A DNA stretch of 64,000 nt from Pseudomonadota bacterium (lineage in GTDB: Bacteria > Pseudomonadota > Alphaproteobacteria > Micavibrionales > CSBR16-224). The stretch is from the NCBI GenBank assembly GCA_013285465.1, contig CP053449.1, forward strand, positions 1 to 64,000. The letters run 5' to 3'. The position numbers were made by a program, and so were the translations under genes. The number at the start of each line of letters is the position of its first letter. Within the stretch, counting starts at the first letter, position 1. Below are positions 25,614 through 33,540 of this stretch, one piece after another. Under the pieces are notes generated by a model. That model had not been told where the DNA came from. It did no database searches and saw only the letters and a list, made by a program, of their open reading frames with translations.

Positions 25614-26870
25614 TTATTCTTCGGCGGGGCAAATCTCAGCGATGAAGTTTTTGCCTGTTGATATATCCGCGAGCATATAGGGTTTCCACAACCCGAAAAT
25701 ACGGCAACCGTTTGCGGAAACAGCCAGGTCGCTGACTGCACCTGCTAAAACACGGATAATTTTTTGTTCACGTGTGACAAGGCAGAGATAGCTTTTTTGC
25801 TGATTGCCCCATAAATCTAAGACATCCGGCTCATCCCGTTTCAGCCCCGCATAGCTGCATGGTATCACAAAACCGTTTGATACCGGGTGACGCAGCATTG
25901 TATGTGCACCGTTTTCCATGTTCATTGGTGGAAGCGTGTATTGATCAACAAGGTTAAACTGACGGTCAAACCAGAGGACTTGACGGCTGTCATCTTCTTC
26001 TGATGCGTGGGTGGCAAGGAAATAGCGGTCGCTATTGCGATCGAATGTCGGATATGGCGGGTGTGTTCCGCGCCAGTTTATGTCGATTTCACCTTTTGTG
26101 CCGTCAGGCTTCTGCCATGTAAATTTTCCAGGCTGATATTTGCTGCGAACGGTTAGGGTGCTGTTGGGTAGTTTATGATGAACACTTGTGTGTTTGATTG
26201 TCATCATACCGTCATCAGGGTGAAAGGCCGGATGGGGAGGTCGTATACCGTAGCTTGGCTCACAATTGGTTAAATAAAGCCCTTTGGTTTCTGGATGGGT
26301 TTTACTGTTAAATTCTTCCACGAATTCAGCATTTTCGTTGAAATGACCGTAGTATATGATGTGACCGTATTTATTCACGGATTTCGGAACGCTGCGTAAA
26401 TAAGTGAAACGCCGTGTCGCGGGATAGTAGCAAAGACGGCTATTCGTTTTTCCTATCGGCCCTTCGTCAAGTTTTCTGAACGTCCCTGTTTGCGTATCCA
26501 GTATAATAATCGCTCGCGGACTGATACGGTAATTTTTCGTGATAGCGTTATAAACAACATAGCGGTTGTCAATCCAGTGCGGGAAATTGCTCCCAAAGAC
26601 ACTGTTTTGCGTGTGTGCGCTGAGGATAGTAGGCATCTCTGTTTGAGAGAAAAACTTGACCGGATATTCGCCCGGCGCGGGATCAACCATATGTGATTTA
26701 ATTCTTTCCGCAGCTGTTTTGTAGCGCTCCAGTCTTTCGCTTTCAAGCCCCAAAATGTCGATGATGGAGGTCTGCTGCGCGCCCTCCTCTGCCTGCGATA
26801 TTCCCGCGTTGCAGATAAACGCCGATAGAAAAGAAAGTAAAGCAATAAAATACAAAAATTTTTTCGGCAT
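25614..26870 (-). CDS. Secreted protein of unknown function, last gene of the gamma-glutamyl operon
   Basis: Not recognised. The protein has about 418 residues from ATG 26870, chosen because GCGAG stands six bases upstream; ATG 26876 is the alternative. A signal peptide (basic start, hydrophobic 5-22, likely cleavage after QAE or ISQA) sends it to the periplasm. The mature part alternates short beta-strand-like blocks with Trp, Tyr and Asp-rich turns (FPHWIDNRYVVYN, PTFDRNSDRYFLATH), which suggests a beta-propeller. Its codons are more AT-rich than those of its neighbours, hinting at recent acquisition. It lies only about 10 bases after the glutamine amidotransferase-like gene, so it is probably co-transcribed. 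Confidence 0.7.
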   Translation of the reverse strand: MPKKFLYFIALLSFLSAFICNAGISQAEEGAQQTSIIDILGLESERLERYKTAAERIKSHMVDPAPGEYPVKFFSQTEMPTILSAHTQNSVFGSNFPHWIDNRYVVYNAITKNYRISPRAIIILDTQTGTFRKLDEGPIGKTNSRLCYYPATRRFTYLRSVPKSVNKYGHIIYYGHFNENAEFVEEFNSKTHPETKGLYLTNCEPSYGIRPPHPAFHPDDGMMTIKHTSVHHKLPNSTLTVRSKYQPGKFTWQKPDGTKGEIDINWRGTHPPYPTFDRNSDRYFLATHASEEDDSRQVLWFDRQFNLVDQYTLPPMNMENGAHTMLRHPVSNGFVIPCSYAGLKRDEPDVLDLWGNQQKSYLCLVTREQKIIRVLAGAVSDLAVSANGCRIFGLWKPYMLADISTGKNFIAEICPAEE

Positions 26871-26881
26871 ACACATCTCGC

Positions 26882-27640
26882 TTAGTCACCCTTGCGGGAC
26901 TGAACGGCGTTCAGATAATGTGCCAGCAGGGCATCGGCATCTGCCTTTGTTTCGTTGCGGGCGAATTCGGGGTGCCATTGCACGGCCATGACATAGCTGT
27001 CGGGCTCGTCCAGCCAGAATGATTCGATGACGTTATCGGTGGAGGAGACGGCCTGCACTTTCAGCCCTTTGCCGAGTTTATGCACGGCCTGATGATGGAC
27101 GCTGTTCACAATCGCCTTTTCCCGCCCTTCGAAAATATAGGACAGCGCCGTATCGGGCGTGATATCGATTTCATGTTTCAGATTATCATAGGCATGGGCG
27201 CAGCGATGCGTGGTGTCCGTGTCGATCTGGGTGGCGATATCCTGATACAGCGTGCCGCCAAGCGCGACATTTATCAGCTGCATACCGCGGCAGATGCCGA
27301 GAACGGGTTTTTTCAGCTCTTTTGCGGCATGAAACAGTGCGATTTCGTAGTCATCACGGGCGGCATCACCTTCCCATTCCGGTTTCAGCGGTTCTTCGCC
27401 ATAGCTGCGCGGGCATAAATCGGCGCCGCCTGCGAAAACGATTCCGTCCATTTCGGCCACTGCGTCACGGCTGGTCACCTTGCCGGAGATTTTCGGCATC
27501 ATATAGGGAATCGCGCCCGCATCTGCGAAAAAATCGCACATGCCCTGTTCCAGAAAAGCGAGGGTTTTCTTGGCGTAAAATTTTCGGTCAGGATCCGGGT
27601 AAAAGAAATTGGCGGAAATACCGATACGTAGATGTGACAT
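26882..27640 (-). CDS. Gamma-glutamyl hydrolase, class I glutamine amidotransferase-like (PuuD family)
   Basis: A 252-residue cytoplasmic hydrolase. The nucleophile Cys lies in LGICRGMQLINVALGG and the His and Glu of the triad in QWHPEF, the PuuD-type peptidase C26 pattern. PuuD releases GABA from gamma-glutamyl-GABA. In this operon it would free the amine carboxylate product (GABA, glycine or similar) and glutamate in the last step of a gamma-glutamylated route. It follows the alcohol dehydrogenase by 38 bases. Confidence 0.9.
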   Translation of the reverse strand: MSHLRIGISANFFYPDPDRKFYAKKTLAFLEQGMCDFFADAGAIPYMMPKISGKVTSRDAVAEMDGIVFAGGADLCPRSYGEEPLKPEWEGDAARDDYEIALFHAAKELKKPVLGICRGMQLINVALGGTLYQDIATQIDTDTTHRCAHAYDNLKHEIDITPDTALSYIFEGREKAIVNSVHHQAVHKLGKGLKVQAVSSTDNVIESFWLDEPDSYVMAVQWHPEFARNETKADADALLAHYLNAVQSRKGD

Positions 27641-27678
27641 GGCGTCCTCTTATTGCCTTCCGTTATAAGGCGGCTCTT

Positions 27679-28869
27679 TTACGCCGCTATTTTGGCGCTG
27701 TCAAGGTCGCCGCGGCGGGCGGCGTCAAATAATGCGGCATAATCTTTTGCCTTCAAGGGCAGCGGATTGCCGCCCGATGACGGGTCGGCCAGCGCCATTG
27801 CGCCGATTTTTGCCGCATCGCCGGTTTTGATGCCGATTTCCGACAGGCTGTGCGGAATGCCCAGACTTTCCCTGATCCGCATCACCCAGTCCAGCACGGC
27901 GTCAAAACCGTGCGTACCGGGCAGGTTCAGGAAACGCGCCAGCAGTTCCATTTTGCCGTTGATGGCATCACGGTTACGGATCATCACATAAGGCAGAAGA
28001 ATGGCGTTTAAAAGCCCGTGATGCTTGTCATACACCGCGCCGAGCGGATGTGCCAGCGCATGCACGCCGCCCAGCCCTTTCTGGAAGGCGGCCGCCCCCA
28101 TCATCGAGGCTGCCAGCATATTGGCGCGGGCTTCCACATCCTTGCCGTTCATATAGGCGCGGGGCAGGTTCAGGGAAATCAGCCGCATGCCTTCCAGCGC
28201 GATCCCGTCCGCCATCGGGTGATAGCCGGGGGCGCAGAAGGCCTCGAAAGAATGGATAAAAGCATCCAGCCCTGTTGCCGCCGTCAGATGCGGCGGCAGG
28301 CCGATGGTCAGCGCCGGATCGGCAATCACGACATCGGGCAGCATTTTCGGGTGGAAGATGATTTTCTTTTCATGCGTGTCTTCCTTGGTAATGACGGAGG
28401 CGCGTCCGACTTCCGAGCCTGTTCCCGCTGTTGTCGGAATGGCGATAATCGGCGCGATTCCATCGGCATTCACGCGTGTCCAATTGTCACCGACATCTTC
28501 AAAATCCCAGAGCGGGCGGTTTTGTCCCGCCATCAGGGCAATAGCCTTGCCTGCATCCAGACCGCTGCCGCCGCCGAAGGCGATGACGCCGTCACAATGC
28601 TGTTCCTTGTAATAGGCTGTGCCGTCTGTGACGTTCTTTCCGGTCGGGTTGCCTTTGACCTTTGTGAACAGCGCGGTGGTCATACCGGCATCGGCATTGA
28701 TTTTCAGCGCGGTTTTGACGATATCCGATTCCGCCAGCCCTTCATCTGTGACCAGTAGCGGCTTGCCGATATTCAAATCGCGGCACAGCTGCGGCAGTTT
28801 TGCCAAAAGACCCTCGCCGAAGATGGTTTTGGTGGGGTAGTTCCAGTTGCCGGAAAGTGTTTTGCTCAT
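27679..28869 (-). CDS. Iron-containing alcohol dehydrogenase
   Basis: A group III NAD(P)-dependent dehydrogenase of 396 residues. I place the start at ATG 28869 (SKTLSGNWNYPTKTIFGEG); the longer open frame upstream lies within the preceding gene. The GGGSGLDAGKAIA nucleotide-binding motif and the metal-binding His residues (GLDAFIHSFEAF, HALAHPLGAVYDKHHG) are present. It sits between an aldehyde dehydrogenase and a gamma-glutamyl hydrolase. That context suggests it oxidises a gamma-glutamylated amino alcohol, for example gamma-glutamylethanolamide, to the aldehyde; this is inference. Confidence 0.93.
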   Translation of the reverse strand: MSKTLSGNWNYPTKTIFGEGLLAKLPQLCRDLNIGKPLLVTDEGLAESDIVKTALKINADAGMTTALFTKVKGNPTGKNVTDGTAYYKEQHCDGVIAFGGGSGLDAGKAIALMAGQNRPLWDFEDVGDNWTRVNADGIAPIIAIPTTAGTGSEVGRASVITKEDTHEKKIIFHPKMLPDVVIADPALTIGLPPHLTAATGLDAFIHSFEAFCAPGYHPMADGIALEGMRLISLNLPRAYMNGKDVEARANMLAASMMGAAAFQKGLGGVHALAHPLGAVYDKHHGLLNAILLPYVMIRNRDAINGKMELLARFLNLPGTHGFDAVLDWVMRIRESLGIPHSLSEIGIKTGDAAKIGAMALADPSSGGNPLPLKAKDYAALFDAARRGDLDSAKIAA

Positions 28870-28883
28870 GCGTTCTACTCCTG

Positions 28884-30293
28884 TTAAAGGCGGAAATGCA
28901 GGTTTTTCGGGCGGGTGAAGCCGGAAAAACCCAGCACGGATAATGTTGCGCCGCAGCCTGAATCCTTGACGCCTGTCCATGCCAGTGCGGGGTCAAGATA
29001 ATCACAGCGGTTCATAAACACCGTACCGGTTTCAAGATCAGCGGCCAGCGCGGCGGCGGCATCGGCATCCTGTGTCCAGAGCGAGGCTGTTAATCCGTAG
29101 GCGCTGTCATTCATCAAGGCGCGGGCTTCCATATCATTTTCGACAGCCATGATGCCGATGACGGGGCCGAAGCTTTCTTCCGTCATCACGCGCATATCAT
29201 GTGTGACATCGGTCAGCACTTGCGGCGCAAGATAGGGCGTGCCTTTTTCGGAGGCCGGGAATTTGCCGTCATCAATCAATGCGGTTGCGCCCTGTTTGAC
29301 GGCTTCGGCGATTTGTCCGCGCACGAAATCCGCTGCGCTTGTGCGGACCATCGGGCCAAGTGTGGTTTCGGGGCTGAGCGGGTTGCCAAGACGGTAGCGT
29401 TCCGTCAGCCGCACAAAACCGGCAACAAAATCATCATAAAGGCTTTTATGGACATAGATGCGTTCAATACCGCAACAGGACTGACCGGAATTGAAAAAGG
29501 CGCCATCGACAAGATTTTCGACGGCATTGTCCAGATCAGCATCAAAGCGGACATAGGCGGGGTCTTTGCCGCCCAGCTCCAGCCCGACGGGGATGAATTT
29601 GCCGATGACGGCTTTTTGCGCGGCAATACCGCCTTTGACGGAACCGGTGAAGCTGACGGAATCCGTGCGCGGATCAGCCAGCAGTTTTTCCGTATCCTGA
29701 TGTGTCAGGTCAAGTTTCCGGAAGATGCCCTGCGGCAGTCCGGCTTCCTGAAAAGCGGCTTCATAACGGTCGGCAACCAGAGGGGTCTGGTGCGAATGTT
29801 TCAAAATAACGGCATTGCCTGCCAGCAGCGCGGGAAAAATGGCATTCACTGATGTCAGATAAGGGTAATTCCACGGCGCGACAACCACAGAGACACCGAC
29901 GGGAACGCGTTTGATGCGGCGCAGGAAACCTTCTTTTTCCTCCGGCACGATATCCGCCAAAGCTTCTTCGGCAATGGCGATCATATGGCGGCCGCGTTCT
30001 TCCAATCCGCGCAATTCACCCGGTGACTGCGCCAGCGGACGACCGATCTGGCGGGTGATTTCTTCGGCGATATCGCTTGTCCATCCGGTCAGAATATCCA
30101 GCGCCTTTGACAGGATATCCTGTTTTTTCGCCAGCGGGGTTTTTGCCCAGTCTCGCTGTGCTTTTTTTGCGCTATGCAGGGCGGCATCAATATCGGATTC
30201 CGTATGATAGCTGCGGGTCAGATAGACGCTGCCATCCACAGGCGAAATAACCTGAAATGTGTTGTCGGCGGTTTTTTTTGCGGGTTTTCCCAT
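28884..30293 (-). CDS. NAD(P)-dependent aldehyde dehydrogenase
   Basis: 469 residues, normal for the family. The Rossmann region has VVAPWNYPY and SFTGSVKGG, the general-base Glu is in GLELGGKDPAYV, and the nucleophile Cys is in FNSGQSCCGIERIYV. In the operon it stands between a glutamine synthetase-like ligase and an alcohol dehydrogenase, so it probably oxidises a gamma-glutamylamino aldehyde to the acid, the PuuC role. It follows the ligase by 12 bases. Confidence 0.94.
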   Translation of the reverse strand: MGKPAKKTADNTFQVISPVDGSVYLTRSYHTESDIDAALHSAKKAQRDWAKTPLAKKQDILSKALDILTGWTSDIAEEITRQIGRPLAQSPGELRGLEERGRHMIAIAEEALADIVPEEKEGFLRRIKRVPVGVSVVVAPWNYPYLTSVNAIFPALLAGNAVILKHSHQTPLVADRYEAAFQEAGLPQGIFRKLDLTHQDTEKLLADPRTDSVSFTGSVKGGIAAQKAVIGKFIPVGLELGGKDPAYVRFDADLDNAVENLVDGAFFNSGQSCCGIERIYVHKSLYDDFVAGFVRLTERYRLGNPLSPETTLGPMVRTSAADFVRGQIAEAVKQGATALIDDGKFPASEKGTPYLAPQVLTDVTHDMRVMTEESFGPVIGIMAVENDMEARALMNDSAYGLTASLWTQDADAAAALAADLETGTVFMNRCDYLDPALAWTGVKDSGCGATLSVLGFSGFTRPKNLHFRL

Positions 30294-30305
30294 GCGCGTT
30301 GTCCT

Positions 30306-31760
30306 TTAAATAATCTCGAAATAGCGTTGCAGTTCCCAATCGGTGATGGCTTTGCGGAATTCGCGTTCCTCCCATTCGCGGGACTGGGCGTAGTGCTCAA
30401 CAAAATCCTTTCCGAACAGTTCTGCGGCGGCTTTTGACTGGCGCAAACGTCCCGCGGCTTCGTAAAGCGTGGCGGGGAACCGGAATTTCTTGGGGAAAGT
30501 CATGTCATAAGCATTGCCTTTGACGGGGGCGGTCGGTTCGATCTTGTTTTCAATCCCCCACAGCCCTGAACCGATGGCGGCGGAGAGCGCGATATAGGGG
30601 TTGATATCGGCGGCGGCAATACGGTATTCAACGCGTTGCGCTTTTTCACTACCGGTAATCGCCCTGAGTGCTGTCGTGCGGTTTTCAATCCCCCATGCGG
30701 CGGCAATCGGTGCCCAGAAACCGGGGATCAGACGGCTGAAACTGTTGACGGTGCAGGCCGTCATAGACAGCAGTTCCGGCATCAGCGCCTGCTGCCCGCC
30801 GATAAACCAGCGCATTTTATCCGAAATATTGTGATCGGCATCCGCATCATAAAACAGGTTTTTACCGCTGTCCTTATCGGTGAAAGACACATGGATATGG
30901 CCGGATTGCCCCGGCCAGTCCGGTGAATATTTCGCCATGAATGTGGCCATCAGCCCTTTTCTTTGCGCCAGAACCTTGACGAAGGTTTTGAATAGTGCGG
31001 CGCGGTCGGCGGCTTCCAGCGCGTTATCATAGACCAGCGCGGCTTCCAGCACCCCTGCCCCCGTTTCAGTGTGTAGCCCTTCGATCGGGAAACGCATATC
31101 ACGGGACAGATTCAGGATATCCTGATACAGCTCGGCATGGACGGAGTTGCGCAAAACGGAATAGCCGAAAAATCCGGGAGTCAGATTATTCAGATTTTTG
31201 TAATTCTTCTCGCGCACGGATTCCGGTGTTTCGTCAAAAATAAAGAATTCAAATTCGCAGGAGGCTTGCGGCAGAATGCCTTGCGCTTCGGCACGCGCCA
31301 GAACGCGGCGCAATAAACCGCGCGGGCAGCATTTTTCCGCCGCACCGTCGAATTCCGCAAGACAGAAAATGCCGTTTTCCTCGAAGGGAATGATGCGTGC
31401 GGTATCGGGCAGCAGCCGGACAGGCGCATCGGGATAGGCGGTGTGCCATCCGGTATAAGAAGCCTGATCGTAAAGCTGGTCATTGGAATCCCAGCCCAGT
31501 ACGACATCACAAAAGCCGAAACCGTTTTTTAAGGCAGAGATAAATTTATCGCGCTGCATATATTTGCCGCGCAACACACCGTCAATATCAAACACGCCGG
31601 TTTTGACGTAGTCGATACCGCCGGCCTCCAGCCCCTTGCCGATATCCGCAGCATCACCGCTGCGGAACAGGCTTTCGATATCTTTGCGTGTCAAACGGTT
31701 GGCAGCGGAGGCTGCAGAGCCTCCGGCAAAAGCTTCCGGCTGTGTTTTGAAGGCGGGCAT
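30306..31760 (-). CDS. Glutamine synthetase-family gamma-glutamylamide ligase (PuuA-like)
   Basis: A 484-residue GS-fold enzyme that uses ATP to join glutamate to an amine. Family blocks are visible: CEFEFFIFDETPES (metal Glu), GVLEAALVYDNALEAAD, GQSGHIHVSF (ATP/metal), the substrate Arg block NSFSRLIPGFWAP and ENRTTALR. Housekeeping GlnA features such as the adenylylation-site Tyr region (NLYDLP) are absent, and the gene is linked to aldehyde and alcohol dehydrogenases and a gamma-glutamyl hydrolase. That points to amine catabolism rather than ammonia assimilation. It is the first gene of a five-gene operon. Confidence 0.9.
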   Translation of the reverse strand: MPAFKTQPEAFAGGSAASAANRLTRKDIESLFRSGDAADIGKGLEAGGIDYVKTGVFDIDGVLRGKYMQRDKFISALKNGFGFCDVVLGWDSNDQLYDQASYTGWHTAYPDAPVRLLPDTARIIPFEENGIFCLAEFDGAAEKCCPRGLLRRVLARAEAQGILPQASCEFEFFIFDETPESVREKNYKNLNNLTPGFFGYSVLRNSVHAELYQDILNLSRDMRFPIEGLHTETGAGVLEAALVYDNALEAADRAALFKTFVKVLAQRKGLMATFMAKYSPDWPGQSGHIHVSFTDKDSGKNLFYDADADHNISDKMRWFIGGQQALMPELLSMTACTVNSFSRLIPGFWAPIAAAWGIENRTTALRAITGSEKAQRVEYRIAAADINPYIALSAAIGSGLWGIENKIEPTAPVKGNAYDMTFPKKFRFPATLYEAAGRLRQSKAAAELFGKDFVEHYAQSREWEEREFRKAITDWELQRYFEII

Positions 31761-31809: not shown

Positions 31810-33540
31810 CTATATCACCGCTGCCCCGAACGGAAAAGCCCCGTGTTTATAGGAAAATAATCCGGCAAAAACCAGCAGCAGCATGGAAATCAGCACAATG
31901 GCAATAAAATTGAACTCGTTTTTCGGACGGAACAGATCGGGATTGATTTCGCTGCAGATTTTGCTGTTGCCATGCATTGGGTTTTTGCCGCATTCGCGCA
32001 TCTGGTCGAAAATGGCAAAAAAGATAAAAACAACGGCGGCGCTCATCACCACCGAGGCCGTATCCTGCCATAAACCGTCGGGGCGGAAGACCATTAGGCC
32101 GAAGATGGTCGAACCGCCGATCAGAGCCAGTAAGACGATTTCGCTGAGCATCATATCGCGCAATTTTGACAGGACGAGGCTGTCGATATCCCTATAGAGA
32201 ATGCGGACGCTATCGTCGTGCCAGTTTTTCTTTAAGGCGGTTAGTTTTTTATAAACAAGGTGAATGCGTTGTTTATCGCCGGTGGATAAAAGCGCGTCCG
32301 TGTATTTGATCAAGGCATTGAGCGGTTTTTTATCCCGTTTTTTATAAGAGGCGCGCAAAGCATCCAGCCCGTAAGAAATATCCAGCGCCAGCGTTTCCAC
32401 ATGTTTGCTGCGGGTGATGACGCGGTCCCATGCGAAGGCGATCAGAATGGCATAGATGACCGTTGTAAAGGAAATCGCATCGTAAAAATCCGGCAGCCCC
32501 CGCCCCGTTGTGAAATAGCAGTAAGCGCCGCCGAATAGCAGGGTGAGCATGCTGGAAGTATAGGAAAAACTGTGTTCGGCCTTGATGGTGACCAGCAGAT
32601 TGGCTGTTAGGACGAATAAAGTGCCGATGACGACAAAATCATTGATGTGTGAAAAGCCGAAGATTTGCAGCCATGTGATCGACAGAACGGGGGCGAGATA
32701 ATACAGCACCTGGATATTCGGGTTTTTTGCACCGAGAAAGCCGCGTGTGTAAAACAGGCTGCCGCCGGTATAAACGACAACACCGATAACGGCGGCCAGC
32801 CAGACATCATTGACGACCATCGTGCTGATACCGTCTTCCTGAAAATACCAGAAGGTCAGGATGAAAAACGGCAGGGCGGCAAAGCGCGTTAATCCGCTGC
32901 TGAAACAGGCGCTGAGCAGAACATCACCGTCATGATGCTGCGTAAAATATTGCGAGACCCGCGCCCTGAGAACCGTGCTGAGTGCAATGCCGAGACTGCC
33001 GATAAAGGCCAGAACATAGCCTTCCAGACGCACGGCTTCGATATCTTTGAAGGCGGAAAAGGCGAGCTGCTGCACAATTTCGCGGCTATCGGCGCTGACG
33101 ATAAAGCCGACGCCGATCAGGGCGAGAAAACCGAAAGCGTAATCAAGCCCGCGGACTTTTTCCCAGGCTTTGGCAACCAGAAAAGGCGTCAGCCAGATGG
33201 CCAGTATCGGCCATGTTTCATATATAATCGTGGCGCCGATTTTTGATGTTTTGATCAACGCCAGCATAAAACAGGAATGCGCGACCGCCGCCGCCGCCCC
33301 TGTTGCAAAGGCTGAAAGCCAGATATGTTTTTCGACTTTCAAGCTGCTCCAAAAGCTTCTTTTACCGGTATAGCGGTTTTTGAAAAGCCTGTAGCCGATG
33401 GCAAAAGAGGCGAGGGAACAGAAAAAATGCGCCAGCATGACAAATAAAACCGGATCATTTTGCTCCAGCCCGAAAGAAGCCAGCAAAGGGTAAAGGCTGA
33501 AAAGAAAGACGGAGATAAGCATGGCAAAAACGGCTGTCAT
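31810..33540 (-). CDS. DMT-superfamily (EamA) permease fused to a C-terminal helical and membrane domain
   Basis: 576 residues. The first about 365 residues look like a ten-helix drug/metabolite transporter with two internal EamA repeats (first repeat ends IGVGFIVSA, second starts near the EGYVLAFIGSLGIALST block). Then comes a cytoplasmic helical segment of about 90 residues rich in Lys/Asp (DALRASYKKRDKKPLNALIKYTDALL), and finally three more membrane helices (about 465-485, 495-512, 545-565). Plain EamA carriers stop near 300 residues, so the tail is an addition. Substrate unknown. It is not clearly co-transcribed with the neighbouring ligase. Confidence 0.8.
   Translation of the reverse strand: MTAVFAMLISVFLFSLYPLLASFGLEQNDPVLFVMLAHFFCSLASFAIGYRLFKNRYTGKRSFWSSLKVEKHIWLSAFATGAAAAVAHSCFMLALIKTSKIGATIIYETWPILAIWLTPFLVAKAWEKVRGLDYAFGFLALIGVGFIVSADSREIVQQLAFSAFKDIEAVRLEGYVLAFIGSLGIALSTVLRARVSQYFTQHHDGDVLLSACFSSGLTRFAALPFFILTFWYFQEDGISTMVVNDVWLAAVIGVVVYTGGSLFYTRGFLGAKNPNIQVLYYLAPVLSITWLQIFGFSHINDFVVIGTLFVLTANLLVTIKAEHSFSYTSSMLTLLFGGAYCYFTTGRGLPDFYDAISFTTVIYAILIAFAWDRVITRSKHVETLALDISYGLDALRASYKKRDKKPLNALIKYTDALLSTGDKQRIHLVYKKLTALKKNWHDDSVRILYRDIDSLVLSKLRDMMLSEIVLLALIGGSTIFGLMVFRPDGLWQDTASVVMSAAVVFIFFAIFDQMRECGKNPMHGNSKICSEINPDLFRPKNEFNFIAIVLISMLLLVFAGLFSYKHGAFPFGAAVI

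Follow-up and report, generated by a model that had tools for sequence, protein, structure and literature searches.

Ethanolamine is a membrane-lipid head group that, by way of phosphatidylethanolamine, is a widespread source of nitrogen and carbon. The question considered here is whether it is the substrate of a run of four genes found within positions 1 to 64,000 of contig CP053449.1 (assembly GCA_013285465.1; Alphaproteobacteria, Micavibrionales). This 64,000-nucleotide stretch, referred to below as the window, forms one end of a genome of 2.67 Mb in a single contig, and the run encodes a glutamine synthetase (GS)-like ligase, an aldehyde dehydrogenase (ALDH), an iron-containing alcohol dehydrogenase (Fe-ADH) and an amidotransferase-type hydrolase. 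A sequence-only reading of the locus had remarked that PuuB, the amine oxidase of the putrescine (Puu) route, was missing, and had suggested that an alcohol dehydrogenase (ADH) in its place would fit the conversion of an amino alcohol, ethanolamine, to glycine. The comparisons reviewed here support that suggestion through the ethanolamine transporters of related operons, the orthology of the two dehydrogenases with those of known ethanolamine operons, and the occurrence of glycine-using genes beside operons of the known type. The pathway itself is already known; what is added is a ligase from another branch of the GS family, one that seems not to have been studied, and a mosaic make-up of the pathway.

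Predicted route from ethanolamine to glycine

The reading favoured here, at a probability of about 0.8, is that the locus is an ethanolamine catabolic operon that makes glycine via gamma-glutamylation; the substrate, the order of the steps and the direction of transport are those that we infer. In this route the ligase would use ATP to couple ethanolamine, through its amine, to the gamma-carboxyl of L-glutamate; the product, gamma-glutamylethanolamide, would carry the amine in protected form. The alcohol group left free would then be oxidised to an aldehyde by the Fe-ADH and on to gamma-glutamylglycine by the ALDH, after which the hydrolase, of the Peptidase_C26 (C26) family, would release glycine with glutamate regained. 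Glycine could pass to the glycine cleavage system, and GDC-P (glycine decarboxylase) is present in the genome by family search, the method used for all checks across this genome. A drug/metabolite transporter (DMT) superfamily protein encoded upstream may transport ethanolamine or an amine like it. The cobalamin-dependent lyase step of the Eut pathway, which serves the same nutrient, is not needed by such a route.

A gamma-glutamyl ethanolamine pathway with the enzymes ETAGA, GAADDH, GETADH and GGAH is described for C. salexigens and Phaeobacter sp. MED193 in PMC10132767, which cites Vetting et al. The window operon shares with that pathway its predicted chemistry and the order ligase-ALDH-Fe-ADH, and the window ALDH and Fe-ADH are 52-57% identical to the enzymes of C. 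salexigens/Ruegeria-type operons, of which, on sequence grounds, they are orthologs. It differs in having a clade A rather than a clade B ligase, a Peptidase_C26 rather than a formylglutamate-amidohydrolase-type hydrolase, and a DMT protein rather than a tripartite ATP-independent periplasmic (TRAP) transporter. The sequence-only reading had pointed instead to a route proposed around GlnA4 of Streptomyces. The analogy is apt, in that GlnA4 of S. coelicolor (cluster SCO1610-SCO1615) is a GS-like ligase shown to be a gamma-glutamylethanolamide synthetase (PMC6529630) and its cluster has the same predicted sequence of steps, but the route had gone beyond a proposal, having been described with the same Fe-ADH set in C. 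salexigens and Phaeobacter (PMC10132767).

Transporters of related operons

Three lines point to ethanolamine as the substrate, namely the TIGR00908 permease, a TRAP binding protein resembling PDB 4UAB, and the ALDH/Fe-ADH orthology. Relatives of the window ligase that are 66-72% identical to it, and that lie in the same gene order, adjoin either a TIGR00908 permease or a TRAP transporter. The permease family is found by clade A ligases in 24 loci, for the most part either immediately before the ligase gene or closing the operon, and 20 of these 24 match TIGR00908, a curated equivalog for ethanolamine permeases, at 1e-100 or below; in seven loci a TRAP transporter takes its place. In Thalassospira mesophila, where the ligase is 72% identical to that of the window, the order ligase-ALDH-ADH-hydrolase follows a TRAP transporter, and the binding protein of this transporter aligns almost from end to end with PDB 4UAB/4XF5 (5.6e-165; for Thalassospira sp. 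the value is 1.3e-168). In the ligase tree the window clade has the Thalassospira operons as its sister group (support 99/91). We take PDB 4UAB to be the ethanolamine-bound form of Csal_0678 from C. salexigens.

Csal_0678 and its MED193 homolog are named as ethanolamine-binding proteins, with a Kd of about 7.9 uM for the latter, and the proteins of the MED193 operon rise on phosphatidylethanolamine (PMC10132767). The operon of Ruegeria sp. B32, which served as a stand-in for the MED193 proteins, has the MED193 arrangement, RpiR-hydrolase-TRAP-ligase-ALDH-ADH. Operons of the C. salexigens type are followed by glyA and a serine ammonia-lyase gene in Salipiger and by bhcABCD in Aminobacter, as expected if glycine is the product.

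Conservation of the gene set

Relatives were gathered by the ligase alone, and the loci counted were those that are named and extend at least 4.5 kb downstream (n=61). A same-strand ALDH gene is found in 53/61 of them and an Fe-ADH gene in 51/61, with both present in 48. Fe-ADH is found in none of 13 control loci of other GS-like paralogs, comprising 12 from other genomes of the order and the Puu cluster of the same genome; the contrast of 48/61 with 0/13 indicates that the gene set is not due to chance. The order ligase-ALDH-Fe-ADH-amidotransferase recurs unchanged on a plasmid of Legionella lytica, and all four genes, C26 hydrolase included, are likewise found in Micavibrio sp. UBA2705.

Other neighbours of clade A ligases were also encountered. 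Plasmids of Burkholderia vietnamiensis G4 (L030) and Paracoccus versutus (L028) carry a clade A ligase, ALDH and amidotransferase with no adjoining Fe-ADH, and a GMC oxidoreductase gene near the P. versutus set possibly substitutes for the ADH. A gene of the inositol monophosphatase family recurs in nine loci (L111, L114, L116, L125 (7.0-7.9 kb), L093, L095, L105, L113 and L075), and a DAO-GCV_T (dimethylglycine dehydrogenase-like) gene family lies near clade A ligases in 12.

A second branch of GS-like ligases

In GS-like ligases the amine pocket sits between subunits. The window ligase retains the residues for metal and for the substrates glutamate and ATP (E169, E171, E232, E239, H288, R343, R366, E378 and R380), and W349 occupies the position of the GSI flap residue E327; PMC6529630 describes replacement of this residue in non-ammonium ligases, PauA7 among them. 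Its score against the GlnA model is 227.7 bits (cut-off 429), so that by both flap residue and curated score it falls outside GlnA. The C. salexigens ligase was represented by the sequence of PDB 5DM3, which we take to be Csal_0679. Identity of the window ligase is 28% to this sequence and 28-32% to the C. salexigens/roseobacter-type (clade B) ligases, mostly 60-75% within its own clade A (52-57% for outlying members), 37% to IpuC of the isopropylamine (Ipu) pathway, and 28% to E. coli PuuA, outside the clade of which it falls in the tree.

With actinobacterial relatives included, the ligase tree unites clade B with those relatives (100/99) and clade A with IpuC (98/93), and constraining clades A and B to form one ligase clade is rejected (p-AU 5.6e-69). 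Judged by these identities and trees, the window ligase is not an ortholog of Csal_0679. Direct comparison of the published GlnA4 positions with clades A and B was uninformative owing to indels, so GlnA4 was placed through the actinobacterial ligases, which match eight published GlnA4 residues in register (positions from PMC6529630); GlnA4 therefore probably belongs with these ligases, which group with the C. salexigens clade. The lineage of the window ligase differs from that of the C. salexigens enzyme and probably from that of GlnA4 too. The actinobacterial loci (Nonomuraea, Embleya, Arthrobacter) depart further from the window in combining their clade B-side ligase with an ALDH of a separate lineage and a short-chain dehydrogenase/reductase (SDR) instead of Fe-ADH. 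In Thermomicrobium roseum (L169) a ligase and an SDR gene are adjoined by a gene annotated eat, and the separate ALDH lineage is seen in L166, L167 and L170.

The nearest named relatives of the window ligase are from alphaproteobacterial metagenome-assembled genomes, some of them named Micavibrio; two titled Micavibrio (L050, L053) carry NCBI ranks of Bdellovibrionota, yet their sequences group with Alphaproteobacteria. No characterisation of a clade A ligase was found among the open-access papers searched. Within the C. salexigens ligase clade there is a solved GS-like structure, PDB 11ZS, deposited merely as a glutamine synthetase catalytic domain, that may be an ethanolamine ligase.

A conserved dehydrogenase pair and its changing partners

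The history of the dehydrogenases is unlike that of the ligases. In the ALDH tree the enzymes of clade A and clade B operons form one group (100/100) separate from PuuC, ipu and actinobacterial ALDHs, with the clade B operon enzymes nested inside those of clade A; clade A operon enzymes alone as a clade are rejected (p-AU 0.003). The Fe-ADH tree concurs (p-AU 0.018, in a test where one Shinella ADH of other context was also counted outside A). Among 27 alphaproteobacterial genomes carrying the pathway ADH, drawn evenly across the class, the ligase near the ADH is of clade A in 11 and of clade B in nine, and seven have none; a further ADH match on a Pseudomonas aeruginosa plasmid (L143) was excluded. 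In this even sample the Eat-type permease accompanies both ligase clades and the 4UAB-like binding protein only clade B, its link with clade A being supplied by the named Thalassospira operons outside the sample. Since they share orthologous ALDH and ADH partners and both transporter types, clade A and clade B ligases appear interchangeable.

The hydrolase family also varies among related loci, which may have C26, either of two class-I amidotransferase types, or formylglutamate amidohydrolase; a second C26 hydrolase of the window's genome lies at 1.214 Mb. As far as these comparisons of sequence go, the pathway is a mosaic in which ligase and hydrolase, and the transporters, are swappable modules around a conserved dehydrogenase pair. 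We would put moderate confidence in a more specific account. In it, clade A, which occurs in Alpha- and Gammaproteobacteria and Myxococcota under no annotation beyond glutamine synthetase, would be a second family of gamma-glutamylethanolamide synthetases with a recruitment of its own, and the C. salexigens/roseobacter operon would be a hybrid in which a ligase of actinobacterial type has joined the ALDH/Fe-ADH pair from the clade A operon. Trust in this direction of the ligase swap is limited by long branches and by the choice of outgroup.

Alternative readings

Several observations weigh against ethanolamine. The window operon lacks both an Eat permease and a TRAP transporter, and no match to TIGR00908 was found in the genome; the 576-aa DMT/EamA protein in their stead has a long C-terminal extension and no known substrate. 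The C. salexigens binding protein presumably also binds 2-amino-1-propanol (PDB 4XF5). Outlying clade A ligases, 52-54% identical to that of the window (L031 4732-14953; L034 5471-13453), stand without Fe-ADH beside a class III aminotransferase, a P1 peptidase and a spermidine/putrescine-type ABC transporter, neighbours that probably belong to a different amine route and by which clade A is not a single substrate class. The DMT gene lies beside the ligase in all three genus members; outside the genus this linkage was not found, and in one other genome (G020) some 70 kb separate the DMT homolog and the ligase. Two paralogs of the DMT protein are present in the window's genome, and the position of one of them, about 1.6 kb before a Puu-type cluster, hints at a possible role with amines.

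The main rival would keep the chemistry and change the substrate to another small amino alcohol, such as 2-amino-1-propanol (giving alanine), 1-amino-2-propanol, or 3-aminopropanol (giving beta-alanine), and would explain the separate ligase clade by the different substrate. The low identity to the C. salexigens ligase clade given above and the different transporter of the window-type operons in this genus both fit such a reading. It is nevertheless considered unlikely, given that both ligase clades have the ethanolamine permease and the 4UAB-like binding protein in common and are paired with orthologous ALDH and ADH.

Much less probable is an operon for putrescine or polyamines, with the Fe-ADH acting instead of PuuB or in addition to it. 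The E. coli Puu pathway has in common with the window operon gamma-glutamylation, aldehyde oxidation and amide hydrolysis, and the ligase, ALDH and C26 hydrolase are of general Puu kinds, the hydrolases sharing a superfamily; the ligase scores 195.8 bits against the gamma-glutamylputrescine synthetase model NF045547 (cut-off 650). However, the terminal amine of gamma-glutamylputrescine is not an expected target of oxidation by an ADH, neither the ligase nor the ALDH (31% identical to PuuC) is an ortholog of its Puu counterpart, and the genome has Puu genes of its own. The DAO (PuuB) gene is indeed absent from the operon, as the sequence-only reading had it, but a PuuB-like gene is present elsewhere in the genome. 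A separate Puu-type cluster at about 362-368 kb (G000:C1; L035 7164-12878) encodes a ligase placed with E. coli PuuA in the tree (100/97), a PuuB-like oxidase dependent on FAD, a second GS-like ligase, and a PuuC-like ALDH that scores 674 bits against the PuuC model, for which the cut-off is 850. With the Puu genes in a cluster of their own, the window operon would serve something other than putrescine, and since EutB was also not found by family search of the genome (the E. coli control was positive), the operon is not taken to be a broken putrescine operon. Co-regulation of a PuuB gene with the operon, which had been named as evidence that would count against the amino-alcohol route, was not seen, the PuuB-like gene being in the separate cluster.

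An operon for isopropylamine or another alkylamine, with an oxygenase made elsewhere hydroxylating the gamma-glutamylamide before the ADH acts, has in its favour that IpuC is a GS-like ligase for a small amine that lies on the clade A side of the tree and is closer to the window ligase than the C. salexigens enzyme is. It is nonetheless very improbable: no oxygenase, P450 or ferredoxin gene lies near the window operon, whereas the ipuC neighbourhood of Paenarthrobacter TC1 has P450, ferredoxin and SDR genes, no Fe-ADH homolog, and an ALDH only 32% identical to that of the window. A detoxifying or biosynthetic operon, its dehydrogenases running reductively to yield a gamma-glutamylated amino alcohol, would accord with the reversibility of Fe-ADHs and with 4-hydroxybutyrate dehydrogenase as the nearest curated model (354.6 bits, cut-off 500), and is most improbable in view of the uptake transporters of related operons and the glycine-consuming genes beside those of the C. 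salexigens type.

Operon layout

The four enzyme genes form a single run on the minus strand (26882-31760), separated, from ligase to hydrolase, by 12, 20 and 38 bp, and the catalytic motifs of all four enzymes are intact. The sequence-only reading had named this set correctly; all four genes are intact, co-directional and of the expected families. It had overlooked a transporter gene upstream, which brings the operon to five genes, and a possible sixth gene downstream (Table 1). The start of the Fe-ADH gene is most likely at 28863 rather than 28980, because the ATG there is preceded by AGGAG and the longer frame overlaps the ALDH gene. The 420-aa product of the possible sixth gene has no Pfam or NCBIfam match, and only one weak partial relative was found among 51 genomes of the order. 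A promoter scan gave seven hits where 8.1 were expected, which is nothing above chance.

Table 1. Genes of the predicted ethanolamine operon in the window
Feature	Coordinates	Strand	Evidence and remarks
GS-like ligase, clade A (predicted gamma-glutamylethanolamide synthetase)	30306..31760	-	Gln-synt_C 2.6e-97
NAD(P)-dependent aldehyde dehydrogenase (predicted gamma-glutamyl-aminoacetaldehyde to gamma-glutamylglycine)	28884..30293	-	Aldedh 1.7e-121; PWNYP, ELGGK, GQSC motifs
Iron-containing alcohol dehydrogenase (predicted gamma-glutamylethanolamide dehydrogenase)	27679..28863	-	Fe-ADH 1.9e-51; GGGSGLD, DAFIH, GGVHALAHP, DKHHG motifs
Class-I amidotransferase-type hydrolase (predicted gamma-glutamylglycine hydrolase)	26882..27640	-	Peptidase_C26 1.2e-57; Cys in GICRGMQ, HPE motif
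DMT/EamA-type membrane protein, 576 aa, candidate amine transporter	31810..33540	-	49 bp upstream of ligase gene
Possible sixth operon gene, 420 aa, apparent signal peptide	25614..26876	-	5 bp downstream of hydrolase gene

Implications

Gene markers for ethanolamine use that derive from the characterised ligase or binding protein would fail to detect operons of the clade A kind, which in the even sample are represented by 11 ligases beside nine of clade B. The locus and its relatives also offer a clear case of one pathway in which the dehydrogenase pair at the core is conserved and the ligases, hydrolases and transporters around it are interchangeable.

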